A DNA stretch of 64,000 bases from Rhodopirellula sp. (lineage in GTDB: Bacteria > Planctomycetota > Planctomycetia > Pirellulales > Pirellulaceae). Location: contig NZGD01000193.1 of NCBI GenBank assembly GCA_002690925.1, forward strand, positions 1-64,000. Reading direction: 5' to 3'. Numbering within the stretch: position 1 is the stretch's first letter; each line of letters starts with the position of its first letter. The notes beneath the pieces are model-generated. The model did not search any database. It saw only the letters and a program-made list of their open reading frames with translations, and was not told the DNA's origin. Below are positions 46,337 to 57,168 of the stretch, piece by piece. A program made the translations under genes and the position numbers.

Positions 46337-46408
46337 ATTTGCCCATTTGGCTAGTGATTTTTGGTTAAGATGTGGAAGTCAAATTCCATACTCGACCGTG
46401 AGTTACTG

Positions 46409-47920
46409 ATGCCTATCCTGATTCGCCGAGCTACTCTTGTTTTGATGCTCGGTATCGTTGCCGGTCTGCTATTTACCGATTCGTTGCGTGCCGCTGATAC
46501 TGCTGGTGACCGAAAGTCCGATCCGGCAACGCTTAGCCGACCATTCAATGTGCTGTTCATTATCTCGGACGATTTGACCGCCAACGCGCTGTCCTGTTAC
46601 GGCAATACCGTTTGCAAGACTCCAAATATTGATGCCTTGGCTGCACGTGGTACTCGGTTTACTCGTGCTTATTGTCAGGGGACTTATTGTGGCCCGAGTC
46701 GCGCCTCGTTTATGTCCGGCTACTACCCACACGCTACGGGCGTGCTTGGCTACAAGAATCCGCGTCAAGAAATTGGTGATCGTGCCATGTGGTCCGAGCA
46801 TTTTAAAAACAATGGTTACTATGCCGCCAGAGTCAGCAAAATTTTTCATATGGGTGTGCCCGGTGGCGTGCTCAAAGGTGGTGATGGTCGCGATCATGAT
46901 CACGGGAATGGCGCCGATGATGCTCGCTCATGGACCGAGAGATTCAATAGTCTGGGACCTGAGTGGAAAGCCCCGGGTGAGGGTGAAACTCTTGAAAGTA
47001 ATCCAAATGGAAAACGTCCTGTTGTGGGGGGGAATACTTTTGTCGTTGTTGAGGCGGATGGAGATGATTTGGTGCATTCTGATGGCATGACATCACAAAA
47101 AGCTGTGGAATTGCTGGGGCAAAAGCGGGAAAAACCGTTTTGGTTGGGTGTTGGATTTGTACGACCTCATGTGCCATTCGTGTCACCTCGAAAGTACTAC
47201 GAGCCGTTTCTGCCCTACTCGTCGATGACGCTACCAGAAAAACGTTCGGGTGATTGGGATGATATTCCGAAGGCGGGTATCAACTACAAGACAAGCGTCA
47301 ATATGAAGATGGACATTCGACGTCAAAAGAAAGCTGTCGGCGGGTATTATGCCTCGGTGGCATTCATGGATGCTCAAGTTGGAAAAGTGCTTGACAAACT
47401 TGAGCAGGAGGGACTCAGGGACAACACCATTGTGATCTTCACCAGCGATCACGGCTACCACTTGGGGGAGCATGATTTTTGGGCCAAGGTTTCCCTGCGT
47501 GATGAGTCGGCTGGCGTGCCTTTGATCATTTCCGTGCCAGGTAAAAAACCAGCGGTTTGCGATAGCTTGGTCGAATTGCTCGATCTCTATCCCACCGTCT
47601 CAAAATTGTGTGGCTTAGCAGTGGAAAAAAGATTGCAAGGCAAGGATATTTCAGCCATGTTGGATAACCCGAACGTTGAGGTTCGTGATGCTGCGTTTAG
47701 CGTTGCACCGATGCGAAAAGGCTTCCTGTTGCGGGAAGATCGTTGGGCTTTCATTCAGTATGGTGAAGATGCATCGAGTGGGATGGAGTTGTTTGATACC
47801 GTGGCTGATCCACTGCAGTTTGATAACCTTGCTGAGTCAAGTGAGCATCAAAACGTAGTCAGCAGGATGCAGGCCAAGCTTGCTGCCAAACTTGCCGAAG
47901 TGCGGGCAAATGATTTGTGA
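46409..47920 (+). CDS. Sulfatase, iduronate-2-sulfatase-like
   Basis: A secreted sulfatase of 503 residues from the ATG at 46409, which begins a good signal peptide ending at LRAAD; ATG 46370 would add 13 residues. The metal motif ISDDLTANALSCYG, the formylglycine site C-G-P-S-R (TYCGPSRASFMSGYYPHATG, about residues 90-109) and FTSDHGYHLGEHDFW with KVSLRDESAGVPL are all diagnostic of the iduronate-2-sulfatase branch (S1_7). It probably acts on a sulfated algal or animal polysaccharide; the substrate is not known. A third sulfatase gene lies 8 kb downstream. Confidence 0.92.
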   Translation: MPILIRRATLVLMLGIVAGLLFTDSLRAADTAGDRKSDPATLSRPFNVLFIISDDLTANALSCYGNTVCKTPNIDALAARGTRFTRAYCQGTYCGPSRASFMSGYYPHATGVLGYKNPRQEIGDRAMWSEHFKNNGYYAARVSKIFHMGVPGGVLKGGDGRDHDHGNGADDARSWTERFNSLGPEWKAPGEGETLESNPNGKRPVVGGNTFVVVEADGDDLVHSDGMTSQKAVELLGQKREKPFWLGVGFVRPHVPFVSPRKYYEPFLPYSSMTLPEKRSGDWDDIPKAGINYKTSVNMKMDIRRQKKAVGGYYASVAFMDAQVGKVLDKLEQEGLRDNTIVIFTSDHGYHLGEHDFWAKVSLRDESAGVPLIISVPGKKPAVCDSLVELLDLYPTVSKLCGLAVEKRLQGKDISAMLDNPNVEVRDAAFSVAPMRKGFLLREDRWAFIQYGEDASSGMELFDTVADPLQFDNLAESSEHQNVVSRMQAKLAAKLAEVRANDL

Positions 47921-48194: not shown

Positions 48195-49106
48195 ATGACG
48201 AATCAAGTTACGATTGAAGACACGTTCGCTGAAGCCTTTCCCATGCGCGGCACGCGGCTGGTCATCACCGCGGCAGATGCAGATTTGGCTGGCATTGCCG
48301 CGGGGGAATTTTGCGGGAATGCGTCCAGTGTGATTGGATGTGATGCGGAGGCTGGGATTGAGGGGCCAGTAGCAAGCGAAGACACGTTAGACGGTCGCCC
48401 CGGTATGTCTGTGTTAGTGTTTGCTTTTGATCGTGAATCGCTTGAAAAGGCGGTCACTGCTCGTGTTGGTCAGAACGTACTGACTTGTCCTACGACAGCC
48501 TGTTTCGCAGGCATGCGGAGTGAGTTGAAAAAAGATCGGATCAAGGTTGGCGCGCAACTGCGTTTCTTTGGCGATGGTTACCAGTTCTCAAAAAAGCTGG
48601 AGGATCGACGATTTTGGCGTATTCCAGTCATGGACGGTGAGTTTCTATGTGAAGATGTCGTCGGCACCGTCAAAGGCATCGGTGGAGGAAATCTGCTTAT
48701 CTGCGGTCGGTCTCAAGGCGAGGCGTTGATTGCTGCACGATCAGCTGTTGCAGCAATTCAATTGCTGCCGGATGTGATCATGCCGTTCCCTTCAGGGATT
48801 GTTCGTAGTGGTTCCAAGGTAGGATCAAAATATAAGCCTCTAAAGGCAAGTACCAGCGAGAAATGGTGTCCCTCTTTGCGAGGGCAAACCGAATCTGCAC
48901 TTCTGAGAGACGAGCAGGCTGTTTACGAAATTGTTATTGATGGCTTGTCAGAGCGGGCAGTCGCATCAGCGATGGCCTCTGGACTCAAGGCAGCTGCCAA
49001 GTCCCCGGGCGTCACGCGAATATCCGCAGGAAACTACGGAGGGAAGCTGGGGCCCCATCATTTCCATCTGCACCGGCTGGAGTCAGGATCTCAGCCAGCG
49101 AGCTGA
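48195..49106 (+). CDS. fhcD: Formylmethanofuran:tetrahydromethanopterin formyltransferase
   Basis: A cytoplasmic enzyme of 303 residues, homologous to archaeal Ftr and to FhcD of methylotrophic bacteria. It moves the formyl group between methanofuran (or its bacterial analogue) and tetrahydromethanopterin. The family signatures EDTFAEAFPMRGTRLVITA at the N-terminus, TCPTTACFAG in the middle, GIGGGNLLICG and the C-terminal NYGGKLGPHHFHLH are present. It is the first gene of the C1 cluster. In Methylobacterium the order is fhcB-A-D-C, whereas here fhcD leads and is separated from the next gene by 313 bp, so there may be an internal promoter. Confidence 0.95.
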   Translation: MTNQVTIEDTFAEAFPMRGTRLVITAADADLAGIAAGEFCGNASSVIGCDAEAGIEGPVASEDTLDGRPGMSVLVFAFDRESLEKAVTARVGQNVLTCPTTACFAGMRSELKKDRIKVGAQLRFFGDGYQFSKKLEDRRFWRIPVMDGEFLCEDVVGTVKGIGGGNLLICGRSQGEALIAARSAVAAIQLLPDVIMPFPSGIVRSGSKVGSKYKPLKASTSEKWCPSLRGQTESALLRDEQAVYEIVIDGLSERAVASAMASGLKAAAKSPGVTRISAGNYGGKLGPHHFHLHRLESGSQPAS

Positions 49107-49419: not shown

Positions 49420-49785
49420 ATGTCTGCGAAACGTTATCTGTTGAACCCCATGCGTACGGCTAAACAGGGCGTTCATGTGAATGTGGGAAAAGACGGGGAC
49501 GAATATATTGAAATCACGACCACTTTATCGATTCATGCCGACGACATGGCTGACATTGGTGTATCTGACGGTGATCGTGTGTTGGTCAAAACTGAGTTTG
49601 GCGAGGCCGAGTTTGGATGTCAGACAGCCAAAGTTCCGGCGGGAATGATTTTTGTCCCCTATGGTCCACCAACATGTCAGTTGATGGGGGGAGATACCGA
49701 TGGCACGGGAATGCCAACCAGTAAGGGGTGGGAAGTTGAAATCGAACCTTTGGCTGGGGCCGAACGAGAAACTAACACGGAGTGA
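49420..49785 (+). CDS. fwdD: Molybdopterin dinucleotide-binding subunit of formylmethanofuran dehydrogenase
   Basis: 121 residues from the ATG at 49420; the frame from 49237 adds 61 unrelated residues. The sequence follows archaeal FwdD/FmdD: RTAKQG near the N-terminus, DEYIEITTTLSIHADDMADIGVSDGDRV, AGMIFVPYGPP and the hallmark DTDGTGMPTSKG before the final strand. In archaea this double-psi-barrel domain binds the tungsto/molybdo-bis-pterin cofactor together with FwdB. Its presence as a separate gene next to fhcB implies that the complex keeps a metal-pterin centre. It lies 9 bp before the small ORF and is probably co-translated with it. Confidence 0.88.
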   Translation: MSAKRYLLNPMRTAKQGVHVNVGKDGDEYIEITTTLSIHADDMADIGVSDGDRVLVKTEFGEAEFGCQTAKVPAGMIFVPYGPPTCQLMGGDTDGTGMPTSKGWEVEIEPLAGAERETNTE

Positions 49786-50130: not shown

Positions 50131-51465
50131 ATGGATTTGAAAGTCATTGATCATGCAACGTGCACCTTCTGTGGGTGCGTATGTGATGACATTCAGCTGC
50201 ACGCGGATGAAGAACGCATTCATCAGGCCAAGAAAGCTTGTGTGCTCGGGAAGGCATGGTTTTTGAACCACACTGCGGAGCGAAAGTACCCCGACGCTCT
50301 GATCGATGGGAAAGAAGCGACGGTAGATGAGGCGATTGCCGCTGCAGCAGAGCATCTGTATCAGGCTGACATGCCGTTGGTCTATGGCATGAGTAACACA
50401 ACTTGCGAAGCCCAACGCGAGTGTGTTGAGATGGCCGATCATTTGGGAGCCTTACTTGATAGTCATACTTCGTTGTGACATGGTCCTACCGAGATCGCTG
50501 CCCAGTTGGGCGGCAAAGTCACATGCACTTTGGGTGAAGTCAAGAATCGTGCCGATTTCATCGTTTATTGGGGTGGGAATCCTGCGGAGTGTCACCCGCG
50601 TCATTTCACCAAGTACACCTTGATGCAGAAAAGTAAGTTTCTGCCACGAGGGCGAAAAGATCGTACGATGGTGCTGGTTGATATCCGCGAGACGAAAAGT
50701 GTCAAAGCATCCGATATCTTTCTGCAGGTTCGGCCTGGCAAAGATTTCGAACTGATCACTGTTTTAAGGGCAATGATCAAGGACCGACCGATCAGTGAGG
50801 CACAGGTTGCTGAGACTGGATTGACGATCGAGCAGTTGCAAGACTTTGTTGCCAGAATGAAAGCTGCCAGGTACGGTGTCTTTTTCTTCGGTATGGGGCT
50901 GTCGATGACACGTGGTAAGCACATGAACTCGGCTGCCTTATTGACACTTGCCGCGGAGATGAACGCATTTACGAAGTTTGTCGCGATGCCGATGCGCGGG
51001 CATGGAAACGTGACCGGAGCTGATGTCATCATGCGTTGGCAAACTGGCTATCCGTTTGGCATTTCATTCAATCGGGGGTATCCACGATATAACCCCGGCG
51101 AATTTTCGACCGTCGATGTATTGGTCCGGGGAGATACCGATTGTGCGTTCATCATTGGGGCAGACCCCGGCGCGACCATGCCCAGGCCAGCAATTGATCA
51201 TCTTGCTAAAATCCCCACAATCGTGCTTGATCCACATGTGACCCATACCAGCAAGTTGGCACGGGTGCATATCACCACCGCACCGGCCGGGATTTCGGCG
51301 CCTGGTACGGCTTATCGAATGGATGAGATTCCGCTGCCACTGCGTCCAGCACTGAATTCTCCCTATCCGTCCGATGAAGAGGTCGTTCGACGAATCAAAG
51401 AGACGCTATTGAAAAAACCTGACTGGATGGGTGAACGACCTCAAGTGCTTCATAATCAGATTTGA
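50131..51465 (+). CDS. fhcB: Formylmethanofuran dehydrogenase subunit B with selenocysteine (UGA at 50476-50478)
   Basis: A single frame of 444 codons broken only by TGA 50476-50478, which I read as Sec116; the frame is the same on both sides. The protein is homologous to archaeal FwdB/FmdB, the catalytic tungsten or molybdenum subunit that interconverts CO2/formate and formyl-methanofuran. C11-x2-C14-x3-C18 (CTFCGCVC) with C37 forms the N-terminal [4Fe-4S] motif. Sec116 is followed by HGPTEIAAQLGGKV; archaeal enzymes have Cys or Sec at this point, before HGP, as the metal ligand (about position 118 in the Methanothermobacter enzyme). GYPRYNPGE near residue 320 is another conserved active-site stretch. 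A SECIS-like hairpin follows the UGA. If UGA were a real stop, both halves would be useless, and the second half lacks its own ribosome-binding site. Other genes in the window use UGA as stop, so this is local recoding. Confidence 0.88.
50497..50514 (+). promoter_or_regulatory. SECIS-like hairpin after the fhcB UGA
   Basis: GCTGCCC (50497-50503) pairs with GGGCGGC (50508-50514): 7 bp including one U-G wobble, with an AGUU loop. The loop begins 25 nt after the UGA, within the bacterial SECIS range of 16-37 nt, with G as second loop base. It lies inside the coding sequence, as bacterial SECIS elements do. Confidence 0.75.
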
Positions 51466-51591: not shown

Positions 51592-53226
51592 ATGCTCCGA
51601 ATCACTGGTGGAACTATTTACGATCCAGCCAACGGCATCAATGGCGAGGTACGTGACTTGTATGTAGAAGATGGCAAATTTGTGTCGTCTGTGACGGGTG
51701 GTCGTACCATTGATGCAACTGGTTTGGTGATTTTTCCTGGTGGTGTGGATGTACACACCCATGTTGCGGGTGGGTCGATCAATTTTGCTCGGGCCATGAC
51801 TCCTGAAGACCACCGGCGAACTCAGGCGTTCATTCGCAGTCAAACCCGTCGCAGTGGGCTCGGAGGAATGGCACCTACCACATTCGCGACAGGTTATCTA
51901 TATGCAGGGATGGGGTTTACCACCGTCAATGAGGCCGCTGTTCCTGTGCTTTCGGCGCGTCATACACATGAAGAGATGGCTGATATCCCCATCGTCGACA
52001 AGAGCTGTCTGGTTCTGATGGCCAACAACGAGATCATGCTCGACTTGCTTGAGGCCGGTGAGTATGAACGAGCGAAGCACATCGTTGCTTGGCATGTTTG
52101 GGCAGCCAAAGCGTACGGCGTCAAGGCTGTGAATCCCGGCGGCGTTGCTGCGTGGAAGTGGGGGAAAGACGCCAATCAATTATCGGAACCCGTGGAAGGT
52201 TACAAGAATACGACGCCCGGATCCATCGTCACCAGTCTCGCAAAGATTATCGATGAATTGGGGTTACCGCATCCCATTCACCTCCATTGCAATAACCTCG
52301 GAGCCCCAGGAAATGTCACTACGACCCTTGAGACAATGAAGCATCTCGAGGGCCATCGAGCTCATATGGCTCACCTACAGTACCATGCCTATGGTGGTGA
52401 TGATTGGGATACGATGAAGTCGGAGGCCGCGCAGCTTGCTGAGTACTTCAATGCCCACCCCAACATGACCACTGATGCGGGTGCGGTTCTTTTTGGTGAC
52501 ACCGTCACGATCACAGCGGATGGGCCATGGCAGCATTTACTCTATAAGTTGACGGGCCGAAAGTGGGGAAACCTCGATGTTGAAAACGAAACGGGATGCG
52601 GTATCGTCCCCTACTCATATCGCCCCAGTAATCTGGTAAACGCAGTGCAATGGGCCACGGGGCTGGAACTCTTGCTGCTGATTGATGATCCATGGCGAGT
52701 GTTTTTGTCAACCGATCATCCCAATGGCGCCTGCTTCTGGAGATATCCCGAAATCATTCAACTGCTGATGTGTGCTGATTACCGCAAAGAATGCATGGCT
52801 GGTTTACCACCTGAAATCATGAATCGGATCACGTTGCCTGAAATCAATCGTGAATACACCTTGTATGAGATAGCCACGATCATGTCCGCCGGGCCTGCAC
52901 GTGGTTTGGGGTTACATCAAAAAGGAAATCTTGGTGTCGGAAAAGATGCTGACATTGTCATTTATCACAGCGACAAAGATATTGCGAGAATGTTTGGGCA
53001 TCCACGTTATGTGATCAAGGGAGGTGAGATCGTGATTGAGGAAGGCGATATTCGGGAGACTCCTGATGGAAGTGAATATCTCGTCAAGCCTTCCTTTGAC
53101 CCCGGCACTGATGAATTCCTGCGACCTTTGTTTGAAGATCGCTACTGCATGTCGTTTGAAAACTATCCCGTTGAAATGGAGCGGATTGAGCGAGCCGAAT
53201 TTCAGCAATGCATCAAAACCGAGTGA
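51592..53226 (+). CDS. fhcA: Formylmethanofuran dehydrogenase/hydrolase subunit A (amidohydrolase)
   Basis: A 544-residue member of the amidohydrolase superfamily, homologous to archaeal FwdA and bacterial FhcA. In this family it carries the binuclear zinc site that condenses formate with, or releases it from, methanofuran. The metal motif VDVHTHVAG (H-x-H, about residues 54-62), VKAVNPGG (the probable carboxylated Lys), HLHCNNLG, HMAHLQYHAYGG and the catalytic Asp in STDHPNG are all present. It lies 126 bp downstream of fhcB and 56 bp upstream of fhcC on the same strand. Confidence 0.96.
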   Translation: MLRITGGTIYDPANGINGEVRDLYVEDGKFVSSVTGGRTIDATGLVIFPGGVDVHTHVAGGSINFARAMTPEDHRRTQAFIRSQTRRSGLGGMAPTTFATGYLYAGMGFTTVNEAAVPVLSARHTHEEMADIPIVDKSCLVLMANNEIMLDLLEAGEYERAKHIVAWHVWAAKAYGVKAVNPGGVAAWKWGKDANQLSEPVEGYKNTTPGSIVTSLAKIIDELGLPHPIHLHCNNLGAPGNVTTTLETMKHLEGHRAHMAHLQYHAYGGDDWDTMKSEAAQLAEYFNAHPNMTTDAGAVLFGDTVTITADGPWQHLLYKLTGRKWGNLDVENETGCGIVPYSYRPSNLVNAVQWATGLELLLLIDDPWRVFLSTDHPNGACFWRYPEIIQLLMCADYRKECMAGLPPEIMNRITLPEINREYTLYEIATIMSAGPARGLGLHQKGNLGVGKDADIVIYHSDKDIARMFGHPRYVIKGGEIVIEEGDIRETPDGSEYLVKPSFDPGTDEFLRPLFEDRYCMSFENYPVEMERIERAEFQQCIKTE

Positions 53227-53282: not shown

Positions 53283-54101
53283 ATGAACAAAATCAAACTT
53301 ACCCTGAAAAAAAATCCAACCGTGGTTCTGGAGGCTGAAGTGATCACGCCAGATTACTTTTTGGAACGTTCCAATGAAGAAATCTGTGCGAGTGTGGTTT
53401 ACCACGGGAAGCGAGAAAGACGACTCGACGAATTCTTTGATGTCGAGGGCGAATGCAGTGACTGCATCGAAATTCATGGTGATTTGCATCGCGTGCGTCA
53501 CGTGGGCCGTGCAATGACTCGAGGAGAGGTGACCATCCATGGTGATGTGGGAATGCACCTCGGAGCACTCATGAATGGAGGGACCATTGAAGTTTTCGGC
53601 AACGTGGGTGATTGGGTTGGCGGAGAAATGAAAAAAGGAAAAATCCACATCCATGGCGATGCTGGCCAGCAAGTGGGGGCTGCTTATCGCGGAAGCATGA
53701 TGGGCATGAAGGGGGGAACCATTCTTGTAGATGGGAACGCCGGGATCGAAGTGGGAATGCGCATGCGGCGTGGCATGATTGTGATTGGCGGCACCGCGCG
53801 AGATTTCGCTGGATTGCAGATGAAAGGTGGCACCATCGTTCTTTGTGGCGGTGCTGAAATTCGGACCGGTGCCTGGATGCAACGCGGCACTATCATCTCG
53901 TTGAAAGACATTGCACTGATGCCAACGTTTGCGGAAAGCGGCATCTATAACCCTACCTTCCTGAATGTTTACTCGCGGCACCTGAATGAGCTCGGAGTTC
54001 AGCTGCCATTTGCTGAAGTGGATGGCAGGTATCGACGCTTCAGTGGTGATCAGGGTGTGCCGGGTAAGGGTGAGATTTTGATCTGGGAACCGGCTGTCTG
54101 A
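53283..54101 (+). CDS. fhcC: Formylmethanofuran dehydrogenase/hydrolase subunit C
   Basis: 272 residues. The central part is a right-handed beta-helix of about seven turns, with the repeat G-x-x-G-x-x-x-G seen in GHGDLHRVRHVG-like, HGDVGMHLGALMNGG, GNVGDWVGGEMKKG, GDAGQQVGAAYRG, GNAGIEVGMRMRRG and GTARDFAGLQMKGG, as in FwdC/FhcC and the C-terminal domain of glutamate synthase. In the archaeal complex it scaffolds subunits A and B; in the Methylobacterium complex the methylofuran prosthetic group reaches the active sites along this assembly. Last gene of the C1 cluster; it converges with the FKBP gene. Confidence 0.95.
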   Translation: MNKIKLTLKKNPTVVLEAEVITPDYFLERSNEEICASVVYHGKRERRLDEFFDVEGECSDCIEIHGDLHRVRHVGRAMTRGEVTIHGDVGMHLGALMNGGTIEVFGNVGDWVGGEMKKGKIHIHGDAGQQVGAAYRGSMMGMKGGTILVDGNAGIEVGMRMRRGMIVIGGTARDFAGLQMKGGTIVLCGGAEIRTGAWMQRGTIISLKDIALMPTFAESGIYNPTFLNVYSRHLNELGVQLPFAEVDGRYRRFSGDQGVPGKGEILIWEPAV

Positions 54102-54738: not shown

Positions 54739-56700
54739 TCAGGGGACCTGATTGTTCGTATTTTCGAGTTCGTTGATTGCCCGATTTGCAACACGGACAA
54801 TGTACTTGTTGGGTTGGTCTTTGAGCGCTTTTTTCAGTGTCGGCAACGCGGCGCGGGCTTGTTCGTCCATTTCGTCTAAGACGATGGCTGCGGCAAGGCG
54901 TCCCCATTGATGCTCGCTGGTAAGTTCCTGTTCAAGAACTCGAATCGCTGCGTTGGTGGCGCCAAGTTTAGCAGCAGCACGTGCCGCTGCAATTCGTACA
55001 CTGGGTGATGCGTCAGTTAATGCATTCTCAATGGCTGACAGTGAATCTGCTGCAGCTGAACCAATGTTGCCAATGCCAGTTGCCGCCCAGTAGCGGACAG
55101 ATGGATCCGGGTCATTCAACCCCACGGCAAGTTTTTGCAACGCACTGGGACCGTTGGATGCTTCTGTGGCCATCTCTACAAGCCTGCTGAGCGTTTGCCG
55201 GCTTCCCGTGGAATTATTCAGAATTTCATAACGTGAGCCACTGTTCTGTTCCTGAATTTCTATTTCTGCCTCCGGGATCAGGCCGATATCACCAATCTCG
55301 TTTTGCCACGCGGCCAGAGCGGCCCGCATTTGCTTCAGCCTTTCCTGCTGTTTCGGATCTGCGGCTAAATTGTGGATTTCCTGAGGATCGTTTTTCAAAT
55401 CATACAACTCTTCAACAGGTTTTACTGCAGCAGAGAATAACGCCATCGCAGGCGGCAAGTTGCCGCCTGCCTCCGCTTTACGAATCTCTTTCATCGTTGC
55501 ACCCTTTTCCGGGGTGTTCATGTATTGATAGTACGGTTTGAGTGGTTCGAAATTGCGGATGTAACGATAGCGTTGATCCCGGACGCTCCGGATGATGTCG
55601 TATCGTTCATCCATGCGGTCTCGTGCTCCATAAACATAGGAACGCGGAACGCTGAGGTTCTTACCGAGGAATGCGCGCCCTTGGGTTTGTTCTGGAATTG
55701 GCAAGCCAGCAAGGTTCAGGACGGTGGGACCAAAATCGATCGAACTAACGAGCTCCGGATCAATGCTGCCTGATTTACCTTGGCCATCGACACGCAGAGC
55801 TTTTGGGATTCTCACAATCATCGGAATGTGGGTGCCCGAGTCGTACAGCCAGCGTTTCGCACGCGGTAGGCCGACGCCATGATCTGACCAGAAAATGATA
55901 ATTGTATTTTCATAAAGATCAGCATCCTTGATCTCTTGGATCAGTTCTCCCGCCCAGGCATCCATCGCCGTAATCAACTCATAATTGCGTTTCCAGTCCT
56001 CTCGTGTTACGGCTGTATCTGGATAGTAGTCAGGCAGGGTGGTGAGTTTGTTGGGATTCTGCCGCTGATCAGGCGTAAGATTCGCGGTCACTGATTTGTA
56101 TTTGGACTCACTTGCGATGCCTGACTCGTGGCAACCAGTGAAGTTGAATACCGCGAAGAATGGCTGGTTCTGGTTCTTGCGGTTTTTCCAATGGCCTTTT
56201 TTTCCCGAAGAGTCCCAGATGTTCGCAGCGGAAGGGGTCTTGAACTGATAGTCAGTCTTACTGTTATTGGTGCAGTAGTAGCCAGCTTCCCTGAGGTACA
56301 TCGGAAACGGCTTTAGCCATTCCGGCAACTTGGCATTGCAACGCATGTGGTGCGTGCCAATGCTGTTCTGATACATGCCGGTAATGATGGTCGAACGGCA
56401 TGGTGCACAAACACCAGCAGCAGTAAAAGCGTTCGAGTAACGGACTCCCTCGGCAGCCATTTTGTCCAGGTTGGGAGTGATCGCGTGCGGGTCACCATAG
56501 CACCCCAAATGCGCGCTTATGTCCTCGCAGGAAATCCATAGGATGTTGGGGCGTGTTCGTGCCGAATCAGTTTCGTCCGCTAGTACGGGGCATGATTGAA
56601 ATACAGGGCTTGCCTGAAAAATGGCTGCCAGTAGCACTGCCACTACTGGAAAGCAATGAACCAAGTGGGGTGCCTGGGGTGATCGAATGTAGGTTCGCAT
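54739..56700 (-). CDS. Sulfatase with C-terminal HEAT repeats
   Basis: A secreted sulfatase of 653 residues from the ATG at 56700, which gives a signal peptide ending near VLADE; the frame to 56778 adds a non-conserved leader. The metal motif WISCEDISAHLGCYG and the formylglycine site C-A-P-C-R (GVCAPCRSTIITGMYQNSIGT) are clear. FWSDHGVGLPRAKRWLYDSGTHIP completes the active site. This layout matches the N-sulfoglucosamine-type (S1_8) branch. From about residue 530 there is a HEAT-repeat region (DPSVRYWAATGIGNIGS, SPSVRIAAARAAAKLGA, HQWGRLAAAIVLDEM), perhaps for binding a partner or surface. The second Cys in the CxPxR site is less common than Ser. Confidence 0.92.
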   Translation of the reverse strand: MRTYIRSPQAPHLVHCFPVVAVLLAAIFQASPVFQSCPVLADETDSARTRPNILWISCEDISAHLGCYGDPHAITPNLDKMAAEGVRYSNAFTAAGVCAPCRSTIITGMYQNSIGTHHMRCNAKLPEWLKPFPMYLREAGYYCTNNSKTDYQFKTPSAANIWDSSGKKGHWKNRKNQNQPFFAVFNFTGCHESGIASESKYKSVTANLTPDQRQNPNKLTTLPDYYPDTAVTREDWKRNYELITAMDAWAGELIQEIKDADLYENTIIIFWSDHGVGLPRAKRWLYDSGTHIPMIVRIPKALRVDGQGKSGSIDPELVSSIDFGPTVLNLAGLPIPEQTQGRAFLGKNLSVPRSYVYGARDRMDERYDIIRSVRDQRYRYIRNFEPLKPYYQYMNTPEKGATMKEIRKAEAGGNLPPAMALFSAAVKPVEELYDLKNDPQEIHNLAADPKQQERLKQMRAALAAWQNEIGDIGLIPEAEIEIQEQNSGSRYEILNNSTGSRQTLSRLVEMATEASNGPSALQKLAVGLNDPDPSVRYWAATGIGNIGSAAADSLSAIENALTDASPSVRIAAARAAAKLGATNAAIRVLEQELTSEHQWGRLAAAIVLDEMDEQARAALPTLKKALKDQPNKYIVRVANRAINELENTNNQVP

Positions 56701-57168
56701 GTCGCAGCATTCAGTGAAGTCGTGTTTCTGGAAAGTGAGAACGGATGAGCAATATTGCCAATGGCTGCCGTTCGCCATTCATCATTTGGCAGTTGGTTTT
56801 TTTTCGGGATGAGCGAAAATATCACAGTTTGGCAGATCGCTTCAGTCGACCCGCTTGATAAAACAGAGGGGGCAACCCGAACCTGCGATCATCAGTGCTT
56901 TCTACCGAAGGGCTCTCTGACGATCAGTATAACAGCAGGTTGCCATACTGTTCTGGCACTGAGAAGGTTCTGTTCAGGAAATTGAATTCGAAAATCCTTG
57001 CGTCAGTTGGCCATGGATCGAACAAAATTCGGGTGATGCATGCCCGAGTTTCAAGTATAAACTGTGCTCAGGTCGATTTTGCTGTGTGGAACACTGTTGT
57101 GTTTTGTGTGCATGTCTATGTCAGTGCGTCGGCCGGCCAACCAACCATGGGTAGATCGGTTTAACATC
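56701..57168. other. Divergent intergenic region, no supported gene
   Basis: 468 bp between the HEAT-tailed sulfatase (minus) and the glycerophosphodiesterase (plus). Open frames in this region are only N-terminal extensions of the two flanking genes or short unrelated frames. Promoters for both genes are expected here but were not identified. Confidence 0.5.

Follow-up and report, generated by a model that had tools for sequence, protein, structure and literature searches.

The gene at positions 50131 to 51465 (forward strand) of a Rhodopirellula sp. contig (NZGD01000193.1, assembly GCA_002690925.1) poses the question of whether a coding sequence cut in two by a TGA codon is broken or encodes a selenoprotein. 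It lies within the window, the whole stretch of 64,000 nucleotides analyzed here. This is almost certainly a single functional selenoprotein gene and not a broken one, and we predict with high confidence that the UGA at residue 116 is read as selenocysteine (Sec). It is very probable that this one gene places Sec at the metal site of a complex that oxidizes formylmethanofuran-derived formate to CO2. Support comes from an intact frame, purifying selection, the position of the codon, the Sec machinery, the constraint on a hairpin and intact motifs; we infer Sec insertion itself, the metal and the direction of the reaction.

A single reading frame with one internal UGA

Translated with TGA as U, the locus yields 444 residues with one internal TGA, at U116, and a terminal TGA. 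This confirms an earlier note on this DNA, which had described a 444-codon frame interrupted by TGA alone and in register on both sides. The note had also warned that gene finding would hide the subunit as two open reading frames (ORFs), and under translation table 11 the gene does break into 50131-50478 and 50506-51465. Ordinary gene finding halves the catalytic subunit of this key one-carbon (C1) enzyme, here and in every other case where the UGA is taken for a stop codon, and the metabolism of these planctomycetes can therefore be misread.

The joined protein scores 495.9 bits against TIGR03129, the NCBIfam model of formylmethanofuran dehydrogenase subunit B (cut-off 327.8), and matches the sequences of the solved structures 9sfi_Q, 8rja_B and 5t5i_B with E-values of 1e-107 to 1e-109. 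Residue 116, directly followed by HGPT, aligns with Cys118 of 5t5i_B, with a Cys of 8rja_B and with X, the letter for an unknown residue, in 9sfi_Q. The proposal that the TGA occupies the archaeal metal-ligand position just before this motif holds in the alignment.

Conservation of the UGA and selection on its flanks

A total of 84,980 species genomes were scanned with two peptide patterns derived from an alignment of UGA copies; 252 relatives were confirmed, and the best 80 of the 252 were kept. TGA stands at the ligand codon in 80/80 of these loci from named genomes, a sample that leans toward the closest copies because of how the patterns were derived and the loci chosen. The kept loci bear planctomycete names, bar one named just 'bacterium'; two belong to the planctomycete Kuenenia. 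At family level, a match is present in 187 of 241 genomes; each of the 35 copies that score highest contains a single TGA, always at the same residue. A phylum-wide sample of 392 genomes contains 10, the window genome included, in which a TGA copy spans most of the protein; they are distributed over five numbered families. Among 54 non-UGA copies, a hand-picked subset of the family matches, the ligand codon is TGC or TGT in 42, specifies another residue in 11 and falls in a gap in one.

A point mutation that broke the gene, or a sequencing error, would agree with the two ORFs of the gene-finder view. Against this stand the identical TGA in all 80 named loci, the conserved hairpin described below and the pattern of substitution. 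Purifying selection acts both upstream and downstream of the UGA in the 13 relatives compared; downstream of it, comparison with the nearest relative gives a dN of 0.007 and a dS of 0.471 (dN/dS about 0.015). The earlier note had allowed that the codon might prove to be TGC or TGT, but it is TGA in the 35 family copies as well as in the named loci. Sequencing error is excluded because the same TGA recurs in dozens of genomes, and a pseudogene is already refuted by the shared codon. We regard this explanation as exceedingly improbable.

Another way of reading through the UGA, by near-cognate suppression or by its use as a Trp codon in this lineage, is very unlikely. The terminal stop is TGA in 16 of the 35 copies, the window gene among them, TAA in 12 and TAG in 7, and the internal codon is TGA in 35/35. 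In the 54 other copies the aligned residue is usually Cys and in no case Trp, and the window genome holds full Sec machinery with a tRNA of anticodon tca.

A second candidate UGA, in genome G016, was rejected: it sits at the distal end of the aligned segment (index 428), and that copy has TGC as its ligand codon. Separately, locus L259 (genome G504) carries a pair of FwdB-type genes separated by about 7.5 kb; one contains the UGA, and the other, which lacks it, is 45% identical to the window protein.

A constrained hairpin behind the UGA

A hairpin of 7 bp with a 4-nt loop, resembling a selenocysteine insertion sequence (SECIS), follows the UGA and is conserved more strongly than the encoded protein requires. 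The same CAG and TTG occur in 87/87 distinct sequences; Leu could be encoded by any of six codons, yet only TTG is used here, and the remaining ten Leu columns tested vary. Codons +7 to +10 are the most constrained of 47 four-codon windows. The hairpin pairs are intact in 601/609 cases, compared with a mean of 450.6 (sd 9.5, maximum 483) over 500 runs of synonymous recoding, and the hairpin window has the largest excess stability among 107 windows along the gene. In 53 non-UGA homologues, which served as a negative control, the same columns pair in 191/371 cases. The constraint appears as fixed bases and one-sided changes, not as covariation, and would be compatible with a coding SECIS.

The idea that the Leu codon preceding the UGA is strictly conserved was also considered and rejected, as this codon is TTG in 35/35 family copies yet in just 57/87 of the wider set.

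Selenocysteine machinery

The window genome encodes a tRNA-Sec (70.3 bits, anticodon tca, or UCA) together with selB (301 bits), selA (508 bits) and selD (253 bits), which follow one another in tandem on contig C155 and overlap at their ends. The possibility, raised earlier, that the genome might lack such machinery does not hold. As a side observation, selD (L108:7218-9371) forms the second half of a 717-aa protein whose N-terminal part looks oxidoreductase-like by eye; the SelD part in the selB-selA-selD cluster reads CRGCGCK and contains no UGA.

A census over the 241 family genomes covered tRNA-Sec, at a threshold of at least 60 bits of our own choosing, and selA, at its curated cut-off. 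tRNA-Sec exceeds Rfam's 47 bits in 143 of these genomes, and selA exceeds its cut-off in 120. Among the 35 TGA genomes, tRNA-Sec is present in 32/35, selA in 33/35 and both in 30/35; one or the other is present in 35/35, versus 95/206 of the remaining genomes (Fisher p 4e-11, ignoring relatedness). Since so many genomes without the TGA gene carry Sec machinery, Sec has other uses in the family. The two sets of genes can also be neighbors: on the K23_9 chromosome (G109, CP036526.1) selB lies about 10 kb from the fhcB cluster, and at locus L192 matches to selA, selB and selD all lie upstream of the gene, no more than about 5 kb away. Strain K23_9 itself has reportedly been lost (PMC12254169).

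Predicted fold and active site

AlphaFold modeled the protein with a predicted local distance difference test score (pLDDT) of 92.2 from a 51-row alignment, and of 51.2 from 17 similar rows. The best fold matches in the PDB are archaeal Fwd complexes, 8rja_B (template modeling (TM) score 0.91/0.94) followed by 5t5i, with TM scores of 0.91-0.95 overall. FhcB of Methylorubrum (6s6y) ranks later, with a TMq of 0.68-0.69 and 22-23% identity. By sequence and by predicted fold, the protein is nearer to FwdB/FmdB than to FhcB of methylotrophs, which is metal-free. The name FhcB used in the earlier note belongs to that methylotroph scaffold and is given up here; the window protein is of the FwdB/FmdB kind and is accompanied by an FmdD subunit.

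The iron–sulfur (FeS) cluster residues C11, C14, C18 and C37 occur in 51/51 rows of the alignment, and H117, R289 and H291 occur in 15/15 rows that carry U. R289 corresponds to a catalytic Arg of the archaeal enzyme. The ligand codon is retained as UGA in the 80 loci and the surrounding active-site residues are intact, which sets the gene apart from the methylotroph scaffold.

Gene cluster and pathway

The gene is flanked by genes for further subunits of the complex and for a formyltransferase (Table 1).

Table 1. Coordinates of the split gene, its recoding elements and the neighboring cluster genes in the window
Feature	Position	Strand	Basis
Selenocysteine FwdB/FmdB (FhcB in the earlier note), predicted	50131..51465	+	TIGR03129, PDB-sequence matches, AlphaFold; 444 codons
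In-frame UGA, residue 116, predicted Sec ligand of Mo/W	50476..50478	+	Alignment; TGA shared in relatives
SECIS-like hairpin GCUGCCC-AGUU-GGGCGGC	50497..50514	+	Loop 50504-50507; 25 nt after UGA; conservation and recoding tests
Formylmethanofuran:tetrahydromethanopterin (H4MPT) formyltransferase (FhcD/Ftr)	48195..49106	+	TIGR03119, 407.2 bits (cut-off 292.6)
FmdD/FwdD, molybdopterin-dinucleotide-binding subunit	49420..49785	+	Pfam Molydop_binding, 40.5 bits
FhcA/FwdA, metal-dependent amidohydrolase subunit	51592..53226	+	TIGR03121, 681.8 bits (cut-off 392.75)
FhcC/FwdC subunit	53283..54101	+	TIGR03122, 256.5 bits (cut-off 130.65)

The start of FmdD was placed by us at an internal ATG, the ORF list beginning at TTG 49237. 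FmdD scores 77.8 bits against the NCBIfam FwdD model, below its cut-off of 175, and matches five FwdD sequences of solved structures (2ki8, 9sfi_S, 5t5i_D, 8rja_D and 7bkb_J). Among named loci with enough flanking sequence, FmdD lies within 2.5 kb upstream of fhcB in 59/62, FhcA of more than 250 aa lies downstream in 44/48 and FhcC in 41/48; FhcD lies within 4 kb upstream in only 15/58. In an alignment with 8rja_A, read by eye, FhcA keeps the HxH, Lys, His and Asp segments of the metal site. The window genome also encodes fae (265 bits).

Two sulfatase-like ORFs, at 46361-47920 and 54739-56778, flank the C1 cluster; they were recognized by eye, with no search run. In genomes G174, G175 and G177, the Sec cluster contains a shortened fhcA (L149, L152) or none that gives a match (L155), and a complete fhcA, closely related, is present on a separate contig (L250, L252, L253). 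Either the gene moved and its old copy decayed, or this is an artefact of assembling metagenome-derived genomes.

Proposed mechanism

In the mechanism that we propose, SelB and Sec-tRNA(UCA), guided by the predicted hairpin behind the UGA, would insert Sec at residue 116. Sec116 would coordinate Mo or W in a bis-pyranopterin cofactor that FwdB and FmdD hold, within a complex of composition FhcD-FmdD-FwdB(Sec)-FwdA-FwdC. FhcD would transfer the formyl group from formyl-H4MPT to methanofuran, and FwdA would hydrolyze formylmethanofuran to formate. The Sec-metal site of FwdB would then oxidize formate to CO2, with the electrons leaving via a [4Fe-4S] cluster to an acceptor, such that the complex as a whole would oxidize formylmethanofuran to CO2.

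An alternative assignment keeps UGA as Sec and treats the complex chiefly as a formyl transferase and hydrolase that releases formate, with FwdB as a scaffold or a slow site. Its model is the Fhc complex of Methylorubrum, whose FhcB is described as a cofactor-free scaffold (PMC10100899). The FwdA motifs look intact, the Ftr gene stands beside the cluster and no electron-carrier subunit was recognized by eye, all of which suit formate release. However, selection has kept the UGA, H117, R289 and the four FeS Cys, the FmdD subunit is kept as well, and the fold is nearer to archaeal FwdB than to FhcB of Methylorubrum. We consider this assignment unlikely and favor a Sec enzyme that forms CO2.

Several observations weigh against a CO2-forming Sec enzyme. 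Folded alone, the window sequence is not exceptional: it has a z-score of -1.37, and 22/200 shuffles fold as well. Two-sided changes at the hairpin pairs number 0/7, which leaves no covariation, and Rfam gave no match at the site in a scan of the window and one weak match (E 5.1) in a scan of the UGA region. Three TGA genomes have no tRNA-Sec of 60 bits and two have no selA, all of them draft assemblies, and the Sec machinery occurs in 95/206 family genomes that have no TGA gene. The window genome is 90.4% complete with 7.84% contamination. Among the cluster ORFs, inspected by eye with no dedicated search, no electron-carrier subunit was recognized, and the window genome yielded no mch, a gene of the H4MPT pathway; mch is present in 218/241 family genomes, and its absence may therefore be an assembly gap. 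In the open-licence literature, we found no protein or selenium measurement for a planctomycete enzyme.

Loss of the Sec codon, and alternatives within one genus

At locus L095 (genome G005), a FwdB homologue that falls within the U clade has lost both the Sec codon and a number of active-site residues. The Sec residue falls in an alignment gap, the following residues are changed, R289 is replaced by Pro and the hairpin bases are altered. The search in G005 was limited to tRNA-Sec and selA: the best tRNA-Sec match has an E-value of 4.5e-7 and is not among the matches listed over the cut-off, and the SelA match scores 259.9 bits, below the cut-off of 267.9. L095 is nested inside the U clade by a weak innermost branch (94/20), with 100/96 and 95/90 on the next outer branches, and the U rows and L095 together form one group (100/100). 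Five archaeal chains and a planctomycete Cys row (L120) stand beside this group on an unstarred branch (93/92). Midpoint rooting was used, and because of long branches the deeper order of the tree is unsafe.

Within the genus, 15 of 22 genomes carry the TGA gene. Five that do not (G170-173 and G190, 99-100% complete) lack both tRNA-Sec and selA at the thresholds used. G179 (66% complete, no TGA gene) has tRNA-Sec and only a fragment of selA, and in G187 (77% complete) a 3' fragment of the gene is present, with tRNA-Sec and selA both lacking. In the four near-complete non-Sec genomes covered, out of five (G170, G171, G173 and G190), fhcA stands in an fhcA-fhcD-fhcC arrangement. The FhcA of these four is far more distant, at 369-389 bits versus 984-1011 for the FhcA of G174-177. 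Seven FhcB queries gave no FhcB-like ORF at E 1e-5 in the fetched fhcA region (L246, L247, L248 and L249), the only part covered. Clusters of this type would probably encode a formate-releasing hydrolase.

It is possible, though on balance doubtful, that one genus switches the end of its C1 oxidation between such a probably formate-releasing fhcA-fhcD-fhcC system and a CO2-making Sec Mo/W dehydrogenase, depending on the Sec machinery. If so, the chemistry used by these non-methanogenic bacteria would be set by gain or loss of the selenium trait, and species with the Sec Mo/W dehydrogenase would conserve the electrons. The family offers a natural comparison among carriers, congeneric non-carriers, forms with Cys and a lineage that has lost the Sec codon.

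Comparison with known systems

The earlier note had left open whether such a gene was already described in planctomycetes, and it has been: a 2016 study reports fmdB of Rhodopirellula P2, from Porphyra, as a putative selenoprotein (PMC4807772). According to that study, the P2 gene order is fmdD-fmdB-fmdA-fmdC, the P2 genome holds a full set of Sec genes, and the closest relative was on a Lake Washington fosmid. The prediction has been in print since 2016, and we found no experimental test of the planctomycete enzyme in the open-licence literature. The window gene resembles P2 fmdB, as described there, in its putative Sec subunit B, in gene order and in the Sec genes of its genome; a family-wide census and a hairpin test at this gene are added here. 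The concept is not new in kind. What is added is breadth, the conserved hairpin, a case of Sec loss and the divergent fhcA-fhcD-fhcC clusters of the same genus.

One paper states that fwdD is absent from planctomycetes (PMC5020050). The window cluster and P2, both with an FmdD gene, disagree with that statement. A 2026 review places the family in bacteria and archaea, and 'planctomycet' does not occur in its text (PMC13188914). Sec formylmethanofuran dehydrogenase subunit B of Methanopyrus kandleri is tabled as experimentally verified in two sources (PMC13188914, PMC9312934).

With the archaeal Sec subunit B, the window protein is predicted to share Sec at the metal ligand, the UHxP motif, the fold and the FeS Cys. 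It differs in that the Sec genes of its genome are of bacterial type and an in-frame hairpin closely follows the UGA, and the U rows form a group separate from the five archaeal FwdB chains in the tree. With FhcABCD of Methylorubrum extorquens (6s6y), it shares an Ftr gene in the cluster and homologous subunits A, B and C. Whereas the FhcB of that organism is described as lacking the cofactor (PMC10100899), the window cluster combines an intact metal site with FmdD.
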